The notes below the pieces were generated by a model. It was not told the DNA's origin, ran no database searches, and saw only the letters and a program-made list of their open reading frames with translations. This document shows, piece by piece, positions 37,814 through 45,464 of a stretch of 64,000 bases of DNA. Location: NCBI GenBank assembly GCA_937922655.1, contig CALAJH010000027.1, positions 1 through 64,000 on the forward strand. Reading direction: 5' to 3'. The stretch comes from an uncultured Bacteroidia bacterium. Its GTDB lineage: Bacteria > Bacteroidota > Bacteroidia > J057 > CALAJH01. How positions within the stretch are numbered: the first letter of the stretch is position 1; each line of letters starts with the position of its first letter. The translations under genes and the position numbers were made by a program.

Positions 37814-38584
37814 TTATTCGTACTGTTTGGGGGCAAAGGAGGCGGCAATGAATTCGCGGTTGAGCATGGCGATGTTGGTCAGCGAAATGCCTTTGGGACA
37901 TTCGGCTTCGCAGGCGCCGGTGTTGGTGCAGGCGCCGAAGCCTTCGGCGTCCATTTGGGCAAGCATGTTTCGGACGCGCGAACGGCGTTCGGGTTCGCCT
38001 TGGGGAAGCATGGCCAAATGAGCGACTTTGGCGCTGACGAAAAGCATGGCCGAGGCGTTTTTGCAGGCCGCGACGCATGCCCCGCAACCGATGCACGCCG
38101 CCGCCTCGAACGCCCGGTCGGCTATGGGCTTGGGTATCGGGATGGAATTGGCTTCGGGCGCCGAACCCGTGTCCACCGAAACGTATCCTCCCGCCGCCAT
38201 GATGCGGTCGAACGCCGAACGGTCGACGACAAGGTCTTTAATAATGGGAAAGGCTTTGGCCCGCCACGGTTCGATGTATATCGTTTCCCCGTTTTTGAAG
38301 GCCCGCATGTGTAGTTGGCAGGCCGTCGTGCCGGGCCACGGGCCGTGCGCACGCCCGTTGATGTACAAATTGCACGAGCCGCATATCCCCTCCCGACAGT
38401 CGTGGTCGAAGGCCACCGGTTCCTTGCCCTCTTTTATTAATTTTTCGTTGAGAATGTCGAGCATTTCCAAGAACGAGGCCTCCTGCGGAACGTCCGAAAC
38501 CGTGTAGCTTTCCATTTTCCCCGGCGATTTCGCGTCTTTTTGGCGCCAAACTTTTAGGTTCAAGGTCAATTTTTCTTTAACCAT
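37814..38584 (-). CDS. sdhB: Succinate dehydrogenase / fumarate reductase iron-sulfur subunit
   Basis: 256 aa. Electron-transfer subunit of complex II. The [2Fe-2S] ligands are in CREGICGSC (with a later Cys), the first 4Fe-4S motif in [15 protein letters not shown], and further cluster Cys in [15 protein letters not shown]. The length and the [14 protein letters not shown] start match the Bacteroidota Sdh/Frd B subunit, normally last in an sdhC-sdhA-sdhB operon. Here the upstream side is a 300-bp AT-rich gap with its own minus-strand promoter and then a helicase gene on the other strand; sdhC and sdhA are not in the window. Confidence 0.96.
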
Positions 38585-38605
38585 CGGTCTTTTGTAAAAT
38601 TTTCA

Positions 38606-38637
38606 CAAACATAATTAAAACAATCCATCCCGGCAAA
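38606..38637 (-). promoter_or_regulatory. Promoter TTTG-N20-TATGTTTG for sdhB-rnz
   Basis: On the minus strand TTTG (38637-38634), 20-nt spacer, TATGTTTG (38613-38606), a full consensus match 22 bp before ATG 38584. It shows that sdhB can be expressed independently of sdhCA. Confidence 0.7.
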
Positions 38638-38884
38638 TGGTGCATCCGGCCAACAAATATAACCAAAAAAGACGACTCAACTTGAAAAATTTTATTTTCC
38701 CATCAATAAATTTTTGAAATATTTACTATAAATTTTATTCAATATTTCTGTATTTACAACGTATTCCAAGCAATACCGAGCAAAAACGAAAAAATTATAG
38801 TCGTATTTCTTTCAGTCGTCTATCATTGAACTTCAAATCGCTATATTTGCAAGCCTGATTTTCAACGATAAGCGAAAAACAAAT
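38638..38884. other. AT-rich intergenic region between divergent sdhB and helicase
   Basis: No gene seen. The stretch 38680-38780 is strikingly AT-rich compared with surrounding DNA. TATATTTG at 38842-38849 is a -7 match for the helicase, 35 bp before ATG 38885, without a good -33. The composition suits a junction with transferred DNA. Confidence 0.5.
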
Positions 38885-41800
38885 ATGCCCACCATATACG
38901 ACAACATAGAAAATTATTTGCACGAAGAGCTAAACCGGGAGATTCGCGGCGCTTATGCGGTCGATTTTTGCGTCGGTTATTTTCGCATGAGCGGTTGGGA
39001 CCTCATTTCCGAGGCCATCGACACGCTCGAGGGCGGAAAGAACAAACAATGTCGCTTGCTTATCGGAATGCCTTTCGCCGAAAACGACCGTCCCAAACAA
39101 CGCGACGGTTATCTGTCCAAAAGCGAAGCCTTTCAAATCAAAAGCAGTTTGAAATTTCGTTTGCGCAGACAACTCGAAAACGAAAGACAAACCCTTCAAA
39201 GCGAAACCACGCTCCTCAAACTTCAAAATCAACTCAAGAACCAAAAACTCGTCGTCAAAGTCTACACTCCCGAACCGCTTCATGCCAAACTGTATTTGTT
39301 GTATCGCAACGAATCGAAAGCCAAAATCGTCGGCTATTTGGGCAGCAGCAATTTGACTTTTTCGGGTCTGAAGATGCAAAACGAACTCAACGTGGACATT
39401 CTTGAACAAGACGCCGCCCAAAAGTTGAGCTTGTGGTTCGAAAAGCGGTGGAACAACCTATATTCTCTCGAAATTACGGACGACCTCATCGAGATGATAG
39501 ACGAAAGTTGGGTGTACAATCAACGGCCTTTTTGGGTATACATGAAAACCGTATACCATTTGTGCACCGATATTCGCGAAGGCGCCAAACTCGATTTGCC
39601 CGAACAATTTCAAAACGTTCTTCTTCCTTTTCAACAAGACGCTTTCAGACGGGCGGTCGTCAAAATGGAAAAAGGCGCGATGGGCGCAATGATAGGGGAC
39701 GTGGTCGGTTTGGGAAAAACCGTTACGGCCTCGGCCATTGCCAAATACTACGAGGAGATACACGACGCGCAAGTGATTGTTTTTTGTCCCCCCAACCTCG
39801 TCCAAATGTGGAATAAGTACAGCGCGGAATATAAACTCAAAGCCAAAGTTTTTTCCCATGCCGTTTCCAAAAAAGAAATGGAAGAAAACGAATTGGACAA
39901 AACCGGCGACTTTATCATCATCGACGAAAGCCACAACTTCAGAAACATCAAAAGCAAACGTTACGAAGTCATTTCGGCATATATTCAAAAACGGCGCAAC
40001 GCCAATGTAAACACGCGCGTGCTTTTGCTTACCGCCACGCCTTACAACAAGGATTATTCCGACCTTTACGCCCAACTTTCCTTAATTATCAACCCCGATG
40101 AACGTCTGCCTTTCAAACCCGACGCGGAAATCAAGTTACAGGGCGGCGAGTCGTTCTTCAAACAAAAAAACAAGTTTGAAGGACGAATCGATTCTTTGGC
40201 CGCTTTTGCCAAAAGCGAGCAACGAGAAGATTGGAGGACGTTGTTGCACGAATTTTTGATACGTCGAACGCGTTCTTTTGTCAAATATTCTTGCGAAAAA
40301 GACGATTCGGGAAAGCATTATCTCAAGGTCGCCGGTAAAAAAATGTATTTTCCCGAACGCATTCCCAAAAATCTGACTTATTCCTACGACCGGCTTTACG
40401 CCAAATTGTTTTCCGAAGAATCCGTCGAGTTGATAGCAAGTTTGCATTTGCCGCGTTACGCACTGGGCACCTATCTTCTTGACGATTTCAAATTTAAACT
40501 CAACTCCGAAGAACAGGAGCTCGTCTCCGACCTCAAACGTGCCAAAACCCGGCTCAAAGGATTTTGCAAAACCAATTTTTTCAAACGTCTTGAAAGTTGC
40601 GGCCATGTTTTCAAACTTTCTTTGGAACACCACTTATTAAGAAATCAAATCTTTTTATACGCTTTAAATAAACACGAATCCGTGCCCATCGGTACGCTTG
40701 AACTGGACGTCGAAGAATCGAGCGTCGATAAAGACGCCGAAAGTTACGCCAATGAAGGCGTTTTTATCGCCGAGCATCGTATCGAATTCAAATTTTCCGA
40801 AATTCTAAAAAACAAGCATAAATTTCGATGGGCGCCCGTCAAATTGTTTGACAATTCGCTTAAAGAACACCTTGAATACGATTGTCAAGTGATTGGGAAG
40901 TTGTTGGAAATCGCAAGGCAATGGGACCCGAAAAACGACCAACAACTTATCGCTTTGCATCGATTGGTGACGCAAATTCACCCCGACAAAAAAATACTCG
41001 TCTTTTCCCAATTTGCGGACACCGTTGAATATTTGGCGAAGAATCTTAGGGAAATGGGCGTTAAAGATTTGGCCGGAATTACCGGCGATACCGACAACCC
41101 GCTCGAAATCGTCAAAAATTTTAGTCCCAAAAGCAACTCGCATTCTCCCAAACCCGGTGAAGAGATTCGTATACTTATCTCTTCCGACGTATTGAGTGAA
41201 GGCCACAACTTACAGGATTGTCATGTCGTTGTAAACTACGATTTGCCGTGGGCCATCATTCGTTTGACCCAACGTGTGGGACGGGTCGACCGAATTGGAC
41301 AAAGTTCCGATACCGTGTATTGTTACTCCGTCGTTCCCGAGGACGGTTTGGAAAATTTAATCAAACTTCGCGCAAGACTGCAACACAGATTGAGTGTGAA
41401 CGGCGAGGTTATCGGCACGGACGAAGTCTTTTTTGAGGACGACATTGATAGGTTAAACTCGCCCGAGGCCCGTGCTTTTATGAATTTATACGCGGAAAAA
41501 GCCGACGCTTTGGAATCCCAAGAAGGCGAAGAAAACGATTTGGTTTCGGAGGCCTACAAAATATGGACGCATTGGACCGAAAACGGTACCATAAAAGACC
41601 TTGAAAAACAACTGAAAAATATGCCTATGCGTTCGAATTCGTGCGTTTCGGGTTCGCCGAAAGGGGTGATTGTTTACGTGTATTCCGAAAACGTGGACGC
41701 GTTGAGGATGTTCGATATTGAAGGGAGGCCTACCGGTATATCGCCCGGCGTTCTGCTCAAAAAAATGCAATGCAAACCCGAAGACCCGCCCCTTCAACGT

Positions 41801-42154
41801 TTTTCCAATCATCACGAATTGGTGGAACTGGCCGTTGCAAAATCCGGAGATTACGTCGGAGAACCCGGGGGAATCAAAGGTTCCACTGCCAATCGTGTAT
41901 ATGAAAAATTGAAGCCTTTGTTGGAAAACTCGCTTTTTGCAACATTGGAAGAAAAACAAGCTTTAGACGATATTTATCGCAAACCCCTCACCCCCGAAGC
42001 CAGAAATACATTGCGCTTGTTGCTGAATTTGAAGTTGAACCCCGAGGTATTGTTGTCAAAAGTGAAAGAATTGTATCGAAAAGGCAAATTGACGTTTGAA
42101 GAAGATGAGATGGAAGAAGAGATTCGGGTGGTCTGTTCGATGGGTTTGGTGTAA
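38885..42154 (+). CDS. PLD-family nuclease fused to SNF2-type helicase
   Basis: 1089 aa. The N-terminal HKD phospholipase D-like nuclease region (about 1-200) has the motif HAKLYLLYRNES followed by GYLGSSNLTFSGL at about 134-165. A SNF2/DEAD-type helicase follows: LLPFQQDAFRRAV, Walker A GDVVGLGKT (about 271-279; DVVGLGKT instead of the commoner DEVGLGKT), Walker B IIDESHNF (about 343-350), TATPYNKDYSDLY, then the C-terminal RecA lobe with KILVFSQFADTVEYL, SSDVLSEGHNLQDCHVVVNYDLPW and QRVGRVDRIGQ. Such HKD-SNF2 fusions are an uncharacterised family often found among accessory genes; a role against foreign DNA is an inference. It stands alone, is AT-richer than its neighbours, and its stop directly abuts the ABC gene stop. 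Confidence 0.9.
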   Translation: MPTIYDNIENYLHEELNREIRGAYAVDFCVGYFRMSGWDLISEAIDTLEGGKNKQCRLLIGMPFAENDRPKQRDGYLSKSEAFQIKSSLKFRLRRQLENERQTLQSETTLLKLQNQLKNQKLVVKVYTPEPLHAKLYLLYRNESKAKIVGYLGSSNLTFSGLKMQNELNVDILEQDAAQKLSLWFEKRWNNLYSLEITDDLIEMIDESWVYNQRPFWVYMKTVYHLCTDIREGAKLDLPEQFQNVLLPFQQDAFRRAVVKMEKGAMGAMIGDVVGLGKTVTASAIAKYYEEIHDAQVIVFCPPNLVQMWNKYSAEYKLKAKVFSHAVSKKEMEENELDKTGDFIIIDESHNFRNIKSKRYEVISAYIQKRRNANVNTRVLLLTATPYNKDYSDLYAQLSLIINPDERLPFKPDAEIKLQGGESFFKQKNKFEGRIDSLAAFAKSEQREDWRTLLHEFLIRRTRSFVKYSCEKDDSGKHYLKVAGKKMYFPERIPKNLTYSYDRLYAKLFSEESVELIASLHLPRYALGTYLLDDFKFKLNSEEQELVSDLKRAKTRLKGFCKTNFFKRLESCGHVFKLSLEHHLLRNQIFLYALNKHESVPIGTLELDVEESSVDKDAESYANEGVFIAEHRIEFKFSEILKNKHKFRWAPVKLFDNSLKEHLEYDCQVIGKLLEIARQWDPKNDQQLIALHRLVTQIHPDKKILVFSQFADTVEYLAKNLREMGVKDLAGITGDTDNPLEIVKNFSPKSNSHSPKPGEEIRILISSDVLSEGHNLQDCHVVVNYDLPWAIIRLTQRVGRVDRIGQSSDTVYCYSVVPEDGLENLIKLRARLQHRLSVNGEVIGTDEVFFEDDIDRLNSPEARAFMNLYAEKADALESQEGEENDLVSEAYKIWTHWTENGTIKDLEKQLKNMPMRSNSCVSGSPKGVIVYVYSENVDALRMFDIEGRPTGISPGVLLKKMQCKPEDPPLQRFSNHHELVELAVAKSGDYVGEPGGIKGSTANRVYEKLKPLLENSLFATLEEKQALDDIYRKPLTPEARNTLRLLLNLKLNPEVLLSKVKELYRKGKLTFEEDEMEEEIRVVCSMGLV

Positions 42155-43042
42155 TCAGGCGGGAATTTCTTTGGCGGTGGCAATGAATATTTCACGCAGA
42201 CTCGGCGCCTTTCTGACGAATTTTATTACAAGTTGTTTATCGGAAACGGCTTGATAAAGGGCGGCGGGGTTGTCTTCCACGCGCCAAGTTCCTCCGTAAG
42301 CGTGTCTTGAAATTTCTCCGGGAAACGAAAATTCGGGGGGGAGTTTGGTTTCGGTTTCGAGGTCGAAAATCGGTTGGGCGTGGCGCATCAACAACTCCCG
42401 AATCGGGCCGTCGATGACCAGTTTGCCATCTTTAATCATAAAGATGTGTTCGCAAAAGCGTTCGGCCTGTTCCATTCTGTGGGTGGAAAACAATACGGCC
42501 GCGCCCTCGTTTTTGAGTTCAATCATCATCTCCTCGACGATTTGGGCGTTGATGGGGTCGAGTCCGGAAAACGGTTCGTCGAGTACGACCAAGGGAGGTT
42601 TGTGGGCCACCGTAGCGATGAATTGCACTTTTTGTTGCATTCCTTTGGAGAGTTCGCCGACTTTTTTGTTGCGCGTATCGGCGAGGGCGAAGCGTTCGAG
42701 CATGAGGTGGGTTTGTGTGCGTGCCGTGGTTTTGTTCATGCCTTTGAGCCGCAGAAGATATTCCAGATGTTCTCCGACCTTCATTTTTTTGTAGAGTCCG
42801 CGTTCTTCGGGCAAGTATCCGATGCGTCGTTGGGCGGCGGCGTCCAACGGGCGACCTTCAAAAAAAATTTGACCGGAATCGGGCAGGGTGATGAACGTTA
42901 TCATTCGGATAAAGGTCGTTTTTCCCGCGCCGTTCGGCCCTAACAAACCGTATATTTTTCCGCCGTCCACGGACAGGCTCAATCCGTCCACCGCCCTTTT
43001 TTCCCCGAAACGTTTGAAAACTTGTATCGTTTCCAGAATCAT
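42155..43042 (-). CDS. ABC transporter ATP-binding protein (ABC-2 type exporter)
   Basis: 295 aa. Nucleotide-binding subunit with Walker A GLLGPNGAGKTTF, Q-loop region, signature GELSKGMQQKVQ, Walker B LVVLDEPFSGLDP and switch His in FSTHRMEQAERFC. A C-terminal DUF4162-like extension (about 215-295) is typical of NatA/YhaQ-type exporters. ATG 43042 overlaps the stop of the upstream exported protein (ATGA); an in-frame ATG at 43060 is the alternative. The partner permease, usually encoded next, is missing: the helicase on the opposite strand ends at the adjacent base. Confidence 0.92.
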   Translation of the reverse strand: MILETIQVFKRFGEKRAVDGLSLSVDGGKIYGLLGPNGAGKTTFIRMITFITLPDSGQIFFEGRPLDAAAQRRIGYLPEERGLYKKMKVGEHLEYLLRLKGMNKTTARTQTHLMLERFALADTRNKKVGELSKGMQQKVQFIATVAHKPPLVVLDEPFSGLDPINAQIVEEMMIELKNEGAAVLFSTHRMEQAERFCEHIFMIKDGKLVIDGPIRELLMRHAQPIFDLETETKLPPEFSFPGEISRHAYGGTWRVEDNPAALYQAVSDKQLVIKFVRKAPSLREIFIATAKEIPA

Positions 43043-44157
43043 GGTTTGCTTTTTTGACATTTTAATTTCAACGTCAGACCTTTTCGATACAGGGCCTCGT
43101 CGGCGTCGGGGTCTCGGTTTTTGGCCGTCCATCGCATTCGTCCGTTGACCGTTCCGTTTTCGACGCATCCTTCGGTAAATTCCAAGAGCGTCAAGTCGGC
43201 GGATATTTCCGCCAAACCCGCTTTTTTTTTCGTCCAACGCGAGTGTTTGAGGGAAGCCGAACGTTTTTTCATGGTTTTCGACCATTGTTTAAAGAACAAA
43301 TCGGGCGTTACGGTGTATTTTCCTTTTTCGTATTTGCCGCCCATGAGCGCCATGTTCCATTCCAAGACGTTCTGTGGGCGGCTGAGAATGAAGGTGATTC
43401 TTTTGAAGGCGACAAGGGCGGCGGTGTAATATTTGGTCGTATCGCCGACGAAGGTTTGCCGCGGAGGCGTGTTTTGAGTCTCGAATTTGCGGTCCCAAAA
43501 ATAGGCGCGATTAATGCTCAAACCGCGCGAGTGCATCGCGGCGTCGTCGGCCGCCAGCGCCAAATAAGATATGGTAAGTTGATAGTCGTAACTTCGGTTT
43601 CGGGTTCCGCACTCGCCGCTTTTACAATCGAATCGGGCGAAAACCGATACGTCGAAGTTCATCGAGCTGTCGCTTCGCGAATAAAAGCCGTCGCCGACGG
43701 ATATCGAAAAGCGTTCGATTTGGTCGGGTTTTTCCCTGCACGTCAAGTCGAAACCCGAAAGAAGTACGACGTATTTGTCTGCGCCTCGGGCTTCGGGAGG
43801 CAACGGGACTTTGACGGTGTGTTCGGCGTTGACGATTTGTCCGTTTTTTCCGCGCAGTTCGAAGGCCAAAAGCCCGGGCAGCGCCGTCACGCCGTTGGCC
43901 GAAACCACCGAATAAAACGAGCGAAAGCCCGTTGCATCGGGGCGTTTTGCCGACGCCGACGAATGTTTAAGACGCGCCGCGCACCCGTCGCCCTTGCATT
44001 TGAACCATTCGATGTAGTCGCCGATGCGGGCCGGGGGATGGTTGTAGGTCCAGCGATGCTGGAAACCCTGCCATACGACAAACGAACTTTCATACATTTG
44101 GGCCGACGCCGAGGGCGAGGCAAGCCAAAATCCAAGAGCGGCAATGACGACGTGCAT
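43039..44157 (-). CDS. Exported protein of unknown function
   Basis: 372 aa. Signal peptide MHVVIAALGFWLASPSASA (start ATG 44157; an in-frame ATG at 44220 would put 21 extra residues before it). The mature part is soluble and rich in aromatic and beta-forming residues, with four Cys in two pairs (CKGDGC, and CKSGEC near the middle) that may form disulfides. Many segments suggest beta-sandwich folds (KYVVLLSGFDLTC, YDYQLTISYLALA). I do not recognise a family. It lies between lysC and the ABC ATPase and overlaps the latter by 4 bp, suggesting translational coupling. Confidence 0.75.
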   Translation of the reverse strand: MHVVIAALGFWLASPSASAQMYESSFVVWQGFQHRWTYNHPPARIGDYIEWFKCKGDGCAARLKHSSASAKRPDATGFRSFYSVVSANGVTALPGLLAFELRGKNGQIVNAEHTVKVPLPPEARGADKYVVLLSGFDLTCREKPDQIERFSISVGDGFYSRSDSSMNFDVSVFARFDCKSGECGTRNRSYDYQLTISYLALAADDAAMHSRGLSINRAYFWDRKFETQNTPPRQTFVGDTTKYYTAALVAFKRITFILSRPQNVLEWNMALMGGKYEKGKYTVTPDLFFKQWSKTMKKRSASLKHSRWTKKKAGLAEISADLTLLEFTEGCVENGTVNGRMRWTAKNRDPDADEALYRKGLTLKLKCQKSKP

Positions 44158-44219: not shown

Positions 44220-45464
44220 TTAGTCGGGCAAAACGGCGTGTATCGCCCGTTCGTTGAGCTGGATTATCAATGCGCCTGCGGGAACGGAGAAGTCCCGGGG
44301 GTAAAGGCGCGTTTGCAACGACAGGCCCGAGGTCGTTTCGGTCAAAAATTCGTCGGTGAGCGGGGAAACGACGTCGCGTATGGTTTCGGCCGCGTCGTCG
44401 ACGCACACCGTCAGCGACACCGCCGAACGTTGCACCAAATTAATGTTTAGTTTGCGCAAGGCGGAAAATATTCTTTGGAGCCTGCCCTCGTCCATAAAGG
44501 AAAAGTCTCCGGGCCTTAGGGTAATCAGGGCTTGTTTGGATTTGTGTAAAATCATGGGGGGGGGATTTTCGGCGGGGGTATATCCGATGAGCGTGCCCTC
44601 GGCTTCGGGATTCACAAACGAGCGCACCTCCAAAGGTATGCCTTTGTTTTGTATGGGTTTGATGGTTTTGGGATGGATGACGGTCGCGCCGTAGAACGTC
44701 ATTTCCACCGCTTGGTCGTAGGATAGACGGGGCAAATGAACGGCGTCGGGGTATTTTCTTGGGTCGGCGCTCATGACTCCCGGTACGTCCTTCCATACCA
44801 CGACTTTTTTCGCATTCAAGGCGTGGGCCAAAAGCGAGGCCGTGTAGTCGGAACCTTCGCGGCCCAGCGTGGTTACCCGTCCGTCGGGCGTGGCGGCGAT
44901 GTAACCCTGTGTAACGACGATTTGTTCTTTCAACGGCAAAAGCGTCTTACGTATGGCCTCTTCGGTTAGGTGACGGATGACCTCGGCGCCTTTGTACGTC
45001 GCGTCGGTAACGATGATTTTTCGCGCGTCCACCTTCGTTACCGACGGCAATATTTCCCGCAAATGTCGGTACAATACGACCGAGGACAACAGTTCTCCGA
45101 AGGCCATGATGCGGTCGAAAATCCTTGGAGGCGAGTCGCCCAAAAGCAGCAGACCGCGCACGATTTGTTCGAGTTCGGTGAAAAGGTCGTCGAGTTCGCT
45201 CAAGACGAGCAATTTTCGGTCGCCAAAAAGCTCTTCGACGGTCCGACAATGAAAATCGCGAATGCGGTTGAGTTGTTCGGCTGCGTCTTGGTGTTTTCCC
45301 GCCACGGCCAACGCGGCCAATTCTTCGAGGGCGTTGGTGGTTTTGTCCATCGCCGAAACGACGACGACGGGGGCGTCTTCGGCGTATTGTGAAACGATGC
45401 GTCCGACGTTGCGCACGCCGTCGGCGTTTTTCACCGACGCCCCCCCAAATTTCATCACTAACAT
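44220..45464 (-). CDS. lysC: Aspartate kinase (monofunctional)
   Basis: 414 aa. Phosphorylates aspartate, the first step toward Lys, Thr, Met and diaminopimelate. N-terminal kinase domain: MLVMKFGGASVKNADGV, VVVVSAMDKTTNAL, TLGREGSDYTASLLA and WKDVPGVMSADPR. Two C-terminal ACT domains follow (about 285-414), for example LRKLNINLVQRSAVSL, which usually mediate feedback inhibition. There is no homoserine dehydrogenase fusion. ATG 45464 follows a -7 box by 8 nt. Downstream on the same strand is the unknown exported protein. Confidence 0.95.
   Translation of the reverse strand: MLVMKFGGASVKNADGVRNVGRIVSQYAEDAPVVVVSAMDKTTNALEELAALAVAGKHQDAAEQLNRIRDFHCRTVEELFGDRKLLVLSELDDLFTELEQIVRGLLLLGDSPPRIFDRIMAFGELLSSVVLYRHLREILPSVTKVDARKIIVTDATYKGAEVIRHLTEEAIRKTLLPLKEQIVVTQGYIAATPDGRVTTLGREGSDYTASLLAHALNAKKVVVWKDVPGVMSADPRKYPDAVHLPRLSYDQAVEMTFYGATVIHPKTIKPIQNKGIPLEVRSFVNPEAEGTLIGYTPAENPPPMILHKSKQALITLRPGDFSFMDEGRLQRIFSALRKLNINLVQRSAVSLTVCVDDAAETIRDVVSPLTDEFLTETTSGLSLQTRLYPRDFSVPAGALIIQLNERAIHAVLPD

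Follow-up and report, generated by a model that had tools for sequence, protein, structure and literature searches.

In CglI and NgoAVII, a PLD nuclease, an SF2 ATPase and a methyltransferase are combined in restriction systems with ATP-driven communication along DNA (PMC4267653, PMC5737866); homologues in which the PLD nuclease and the ATPase are fused have been mentioned, and fused PLD-ATPase restriction proteins are a known kind (PMC4267653). SauUSI, a type IV enzyme, carries the PLD nuclease, the SF2 motor and a C-terminal part in this order on one chain (PMC7913695). Its target domain is an SRA, it cleaves methylated DNA, and it works without a partner methyltransferase. In Type-2 BREX-related systems, DISARM and PbeABCD, an HKD-SNF2/SF2 fusion or separate PLD and SNF2 proteins occur together with DNA modification (PMC12839542, PMC10853773). 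In defence databases, HKD-SNF2 fusions are listed as single candidate genes.

The window analyzed here, a stretch of 64,000 nucleotides from an uncultured Bacteroidia bacterium, contains an intact gene for such a fusion, and the sequence-only reading of this DNA had presented it as a candidate for a stand-alone, single-gene defence system. Comparison with its relatives argues for a different assignment, in which the protein (R) likely serves as the subunit for cleavage and translocation in a two-gene, ATP-dependent restriction-modification system and is unlinked from its Eco57I-type methyltransferase (M). The features in the window are as follows.

37814-38584, minus strand: sdhB (iron-sulphur subunit), flanking gene outside the system, no sdhA adjoining
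38585-38884, plus strand: AT-rich (70%) upstream region, from the sequence
38842-38849, plus strand: TATATTTG box, possible Bacteroidota-type -7 element (weak), from the sequence
38885-42154, plus strand: HKD-SNF2 protein, proposed R (restriction/translocation) subunit, intact ORF of 1089 aa
38960-39451, plus strand: HKD/PLD nuclease domain, residues 26-189, from Pfam (PLDc_2, RE_NgoFVII) and invariant residues
39281-39289, plus strand: HxK motif, H133-A-K135, from the alignment
39341-39352, plus strand: GSSN motif, residues 153-156, from the alignment
39695-39721, plus strand: Walker A, GDVVGLGKT, residues 271-279, from sequence and alignment
39923-39934, plus strand: Walker B, DESH, residues 347-350, from the alignment
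40952-41299, plus strand: Helicase_C lobe of the SNF2 motor, residues 690-805, from Pfam
41462-42151, plus strand: family-specific C-terminal region, residues 860-1089, ending in the conserved CSMGL, from the alignment
42155-43054, minus strand: ABC ATPase, flanking gene outside the system, its stop abutting the R stop with 0 bp between

Open reading frame, Pfam matches and alignment agree with the earlier description of a 1089-aa protein with an HKD nuclease (HxK, GSSN) and a full SNF2 motor containing DVVGLGKT. The nuclease domain matched PLDc_2 (residues 26-189, 4.5e-9) and the PLD domain of RE_NgoFVII (4.6e-8), and the motor matched SNF2-rel_dom (3.9e-11), ResIII (2e-9) and Helicase_C (2.3e-17). 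In an alignment with 26 homologues, the catalytic HKD residues are present, and the invariant Walker A, Walker B and motif V/VI residues are retained together with CSMGL; E167 is found in the HKD domain besides H133-A-K135 and GSSN, and the acidic (D/E) position of HxK(x)4D is non-acidic in R and likewise in its close homologues. Because R keeps the family-invariant HKD and helicase positions, a chance ORF is out; the gene is real and intact, and probably functional. The AlphaFold model of R reached a pLDDT of 75.9 from 43 sequences (a poor 53 from 6 sequences), with values of mostly about 60-94 in the HKD domain. The top Foldseek matches of the model were SNF2 remodellers such as SMARCAD1, Chd1 and ISW1, plus RapA, and the best 50 matches of the PDB fold search consisted entirely of SNF2 motors, as the motor dominates the score. 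Residues 860-1089 gave no Pfam or PDB sequence match, and a divergent fold is still possible there.

The genomic context of the homologues revealed a recurrent partner, a large DNA methyltransferase. An Eco57I-type adenine methyltransferase of about 1100 aa, or a remnant of it, is paired with R in all 38 informative loci, 36 of which were at 32-44% identity to R and two (G067 and G193) at 28%. These comprise chromosomal loci (G266, G094, G174, G036, G236, G105, G186, G067 and G193; G638, G442, G506, G663, G522, G523, G678, G504, G433 and G601), 13 plasmid loci (Pelobacter, Picosynechococcus, Anabaena, Dolichospermum, two from Synechocystis, Microbacterium, three from Rhodococcus, Pseudarthrobacter, Gordonia and Paenarthrobacter) and viral contigs (L112-L116), while three further loci (G357, G141 and G349) were left out as uninformative, their contigs stopping at the R gene. 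In 12 of the 15 chromosomal pairs measured, M followed directly downstream of R, with a spacing of -11 to +12 bp. The M proteins of the R-linked loci are of the Eco57I type and match the PADLOC model PDLC03628. Furthermore, a search of the class with the M fragment of this genome (on contig C33, see below) as the query returned M in 8 of 395 genomes, all eight of which also encode R (hypergeometric 3e-15), and the four viral contigs returned by an M scan were all R-bearing. The claim of a stand-alone, single-gene system is thus not upheld, as the informative relatives are paired with M or its remnant and M is present elsewhere in this genome.

Some of these pairs are disrupted. One genome (G433) has two R-M copies, both broken, and in Synechocystis PCC 7339 R and M were parted by a rearrangement that looks like an inversion, leaving M some 3 kb off. 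On the Dolichospermum plasmid (L056 9892-14100), only 285 aa of M are left, and R has HVD and GANN in place of HxK and GSSN, an apparent co-decay of M and the HKD motif as judged from these sequences; in contrast, the R of the window retains the HKD motif. As a separate observation, a short gene encoding about 150-215 aa lies downstream of R-M in L042-L044, L046, L048, L081, L086, L112, L115 and L116, the one in L116 being DprA-like (DNA_processg_A, weak match), and a macro-domain gene is found in some R-M islands (L046 by Pfam, L044 similar).

In the genome studied here, a whole-genome search with a relative's methyltransferase as the query identified one M homologue of the family, at the end of contig C33 (45% identity, 5.7e-139), and a matching M C-terminus was found at the end of a separate contig, C74. 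The C33 fragment retains DPTCGSGAF and GNPPY, and its best PADLOC model is PDLC03628, that of the Synechocystis partner, which scored far ahead of any other model (495 versus 120 bits). R and M are therefore unlinked in this genome, contrary to nearly all relatives, and R looks alone because its partner M lies outside the window. Both proteins are similarly outlying, with a mean identity to the family of 0.41 for R and 0.40 for M and tip lengths of 1.30 and 1.28, respectively (M tree built with FastTree). Based on the family M in the genome, the co-occurrence in eight of eight genomes and the similar divergence of R and M, the methyltransferase on C33/C74 is the probable partner of R in trans. 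The GC3 of R (0.53) differs from that of M (0.67), which would fit separate acquisition of the two genes.

In the assembly, M does not read through as a single open frame: the frame changes at a run of cytosines and the contig then ends, so that M is only putatively intact.

12038-12048 of L064 (contig C33): 11-C run at the frame change of M, from the sequence

This run could reflect phase variation or an assembly error. Seven poly-C tracts of at least 10 were counted in this genome versus about ten expected from base composition (our own estimate), and because such tracts are not in excess, the 11-C run is only suggestive of phase variation. A trans-split system in which the poly-C tract switches M, and thereby the whole defence, on and off is a tentative and rather improbable elaboration. 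If this were true, the OFF state would be safe for the host, since R would depend on M for locating its site, and R could persist alone in the genome. A 9-G run was also noticed in the window at 44556-44564, in frame in the aspartate kinase gene region.

The fragmented M bears also on the foremost alternative, that R is an orphaned relic left after M was lost or scattered and is now inert, which we consider unlikely. M is in pieces in the assembly, R and M both sit on long tip branches, and such systems are decaying in Dolichospermum and Synechocystis PCC 7339, all of which this explanation would accommodate; on the other hand, the 1089-codon frame of R is open with its catalytic, ATPase and C-terminal motifs all retained, and M keeps DPTCGSGAF and GNPPY.

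For the two-gene restriction-modification system that we favour, a possible mechanism is proposed. M would recognise a short asymmetric site and methylate the host copies at N6-adenine; target recognition probably resides in M, since no recognition domain was detected by sequence in the C-terminal region of R. At an unmethylated site, M, or M together with R, may load R, whose SNF2 motor would then travel along double-stranded DNA until two HKD domains, dimerised or joined by convergence, could cut both strands. As the two genes are unlinked, R (C27) would act with M (C33, putative tail on C74) supplied in trans. Type ISP enzymes possess a gamma-class m6A methyltransferase, as does the M described here, but are one polypeptide with a PD-(D/E)XK nuclease, in contrast to two genes and an HKD nuclease. 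Like the proposed R-M pair, the type ISP enzymes LlaGI and LlaBIII combine a motor with an asymmetric site (PMC5737866), and a one-strand methylated asymmetric site together with a motor is used by both type ISP and type III enzymes. Translocation followed by collision is proposed by analogy with these two groups (PMC5737866, PMC7913695), the R-M family being distant from every biochemically studied enzyme. The unlinked R raises the question of whether targeting is M-dependent, in the style of type I and ISP enzymes, or relies on site recognition by R itself.

The closest known counterpart of the proposed pair is found on plasmid pSYSX of Synechocystis PCC 6803, where R is SGL_RS01585, 38% identical to the R of the window, and M is SGL_RS01600, of the same family as the C33 M. 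There, R and M lie in one cluster with VapC and DUF2513 genes, in contrast to their unlinked state here. Of the two methyltransferase loci annotated on pSYSX, one encodes the type I enzyme M.Ssp6803V, which by elimination leaves M.Ssp6803IV as the expected identity of the M linked to R. M.Ssp6803IV is reported to be slr6050 and to be essential (Hagemann et al. 2018). The M.Ssp6803IV motif is GA(m6A)GGC, 99.6% methylated (PMC7296061, PMC6604393). Of the features of an Ssp6803IV-like family, a full-length R with intact motifs and a family M in the genome are found here; M beside R, usual in the family but not necessarily required, is not; its absence counts against a canonical locus and leaves the proposed mode of action unaffected.

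Compared with CglI and NgoAVII, in which nuclease and ATPase are separate, B3 and Z1 domains occur and the methyltransferase is of the 5mC type, the present system has a fused nuclease and motor, an SNF2-like motor and an Eco57I-type methyltransferase. Z1 (PF10593) was absent from this genome, with a control match in C. glutamicum, as was the DUF499 ATPase (PF04465) of Type-2 BREX-related systems, with a control match in T. maritima, and neither DrmA/DrmB nor ABC ATPase-DndE neighbours were recognised in the loci read. R matched the PADLOC HKD+Snf2 model C3a139 (3e-45, positions 4-759 of 948), for which no curated cut-off is given. Two candidate assignments were rejected, DISARM DrmD (148 bits on NF038317, cut-off 610) and the NCBIfam family phospholipD_antiphage (146 bits on NF042964, cut-off 1100). 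In the literature searched, itself limited, no description of the HKD-SNF2 plus Eco57I-type M two-gene architecture was found.

The domain order of PLD, SF2 ATPase and C-terminal region is shared with SauUSI (PMC7913695), and no methyltransferase lies beside R in the window, so that a type IV enzyme of the SauUSI style, standing alone and cutting modified foreign DNA with no need of a methyltransferase, was weighed. Neither an SRA nor another modified-base domain was detected in R by Pfam or PDB sequence matches, every informative homologue comes with a methyltransferase or its remnant, and a family methyltransferase is present in the genome, which makes this explanation improbable, slightly more so than an inert relic.

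The distribution of R is patchy. The closest full-length relatives show 38-44% identity, and R was found at E < 1e-160 in 10 of the 395 class genomes, this one included, with ten further genomes below 1e-70 in a phylum sample. Homologues occur on plasmids of Thermodesulfobacteriota, Cyanobacteriota and Actinomycetota and on five phage-like contigs (L112-L116). A single-protein scan of assembled genome contigs gave only a 61-residue edge match (L015, Haliscomenobacteraceae MAG) and one weak match, and an initial scan of viral contigs with the single R protein gave no matches. As read from these matches, the spread is the pattern of a mobile defence gene, unlike that of a housekeeping gene, and vertical inheritance in a fixed housekeeping context was not seen among the relatives examined, which are patchy and paired with a methyltransferase. 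The HKD and SNF2 domains and the horizontal spread are in line with the proposed nuclease coupled to a DNA translocase; of its suggested action on foreign or damaged DNA, foreign DNA is the most likely target. That R is instead a RapA-like housekeeping SNF2 protein of repair or transcription recycling, as the appearance of RapA in the sequence and fold searches with the motor might hint, is very improbable in view of its presence in 10 of 395 class genomes at E < 1e-160, the homologues on plasmids and phage-like contigs, the HKD nuclease and the methyltransferase partner.

As had been noted from the sequence, R is AT-richer than its neighbours, with a GC of 0.451 and a GC3 of 0.526 versus 0.51-0.58 and 0.59-0.71 in 15 genes nearby; the 300 bp 5' of R have 30% GC. 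Apart from the low GC and GC3, codon choice was not markedly foreign. R does stand alone between orphaned housekeeping genes, with no operon partner: sdhB is without sdhA, and the ABC ATPase, convergent with R, is without its permease, a homologue of which is on contig C63. Because the ABC ATPase and permease are also apart, the unlinking is not special to the R-M system. Operons such as sdhB/sdhA and ABC ATPase/permease appear scattered in this genome. At the borders of the R gene, no direct or inverted repeats beyond chance and no nearby tRNA were found. In an empty-site comparison, the genes near sdhB and the ABC ATPase turned out to be shuffled within the order, with sdhB followed by the ABC ATPase in G007 and the ABC ATPase convergent with rnz in G001.

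Remote relatives of R on viral contigs (25-30% identity) occur in two cassettes, one with an Eco57I-type M and the other with DUF4391, an N6_N4 Mod and a type III Res. Among the aligned viral loci, all 10 with an Eco57I-type M retain an intact HxK, whereas none of the 28 with the type III cassette does; the count is not corrected for relatedness, and five of the ten Eco57I-type loci are close relatives. Since Res supplies its own nuclease, cleavage in loci lacking Res probably falls to the HKD. On the proposed reading, a large HKD-SNF2 subgroup becomes one definable ATP-dependent restriction-modification class with a separate Eco57I-type methyltransferase, linked to a recognition motif that is probably already known and with natural covariation suggesting HKD as its cutting centre. 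DUF4391 came up in a single paper of the literature searched. The cassette of SNF2 (with a degenerate HKD), DUF4391, Mod and Res is widespread on the viral contigs L120-L190, where the dead-HKD SNF2 protein may serve a type III system as an accessory motor.
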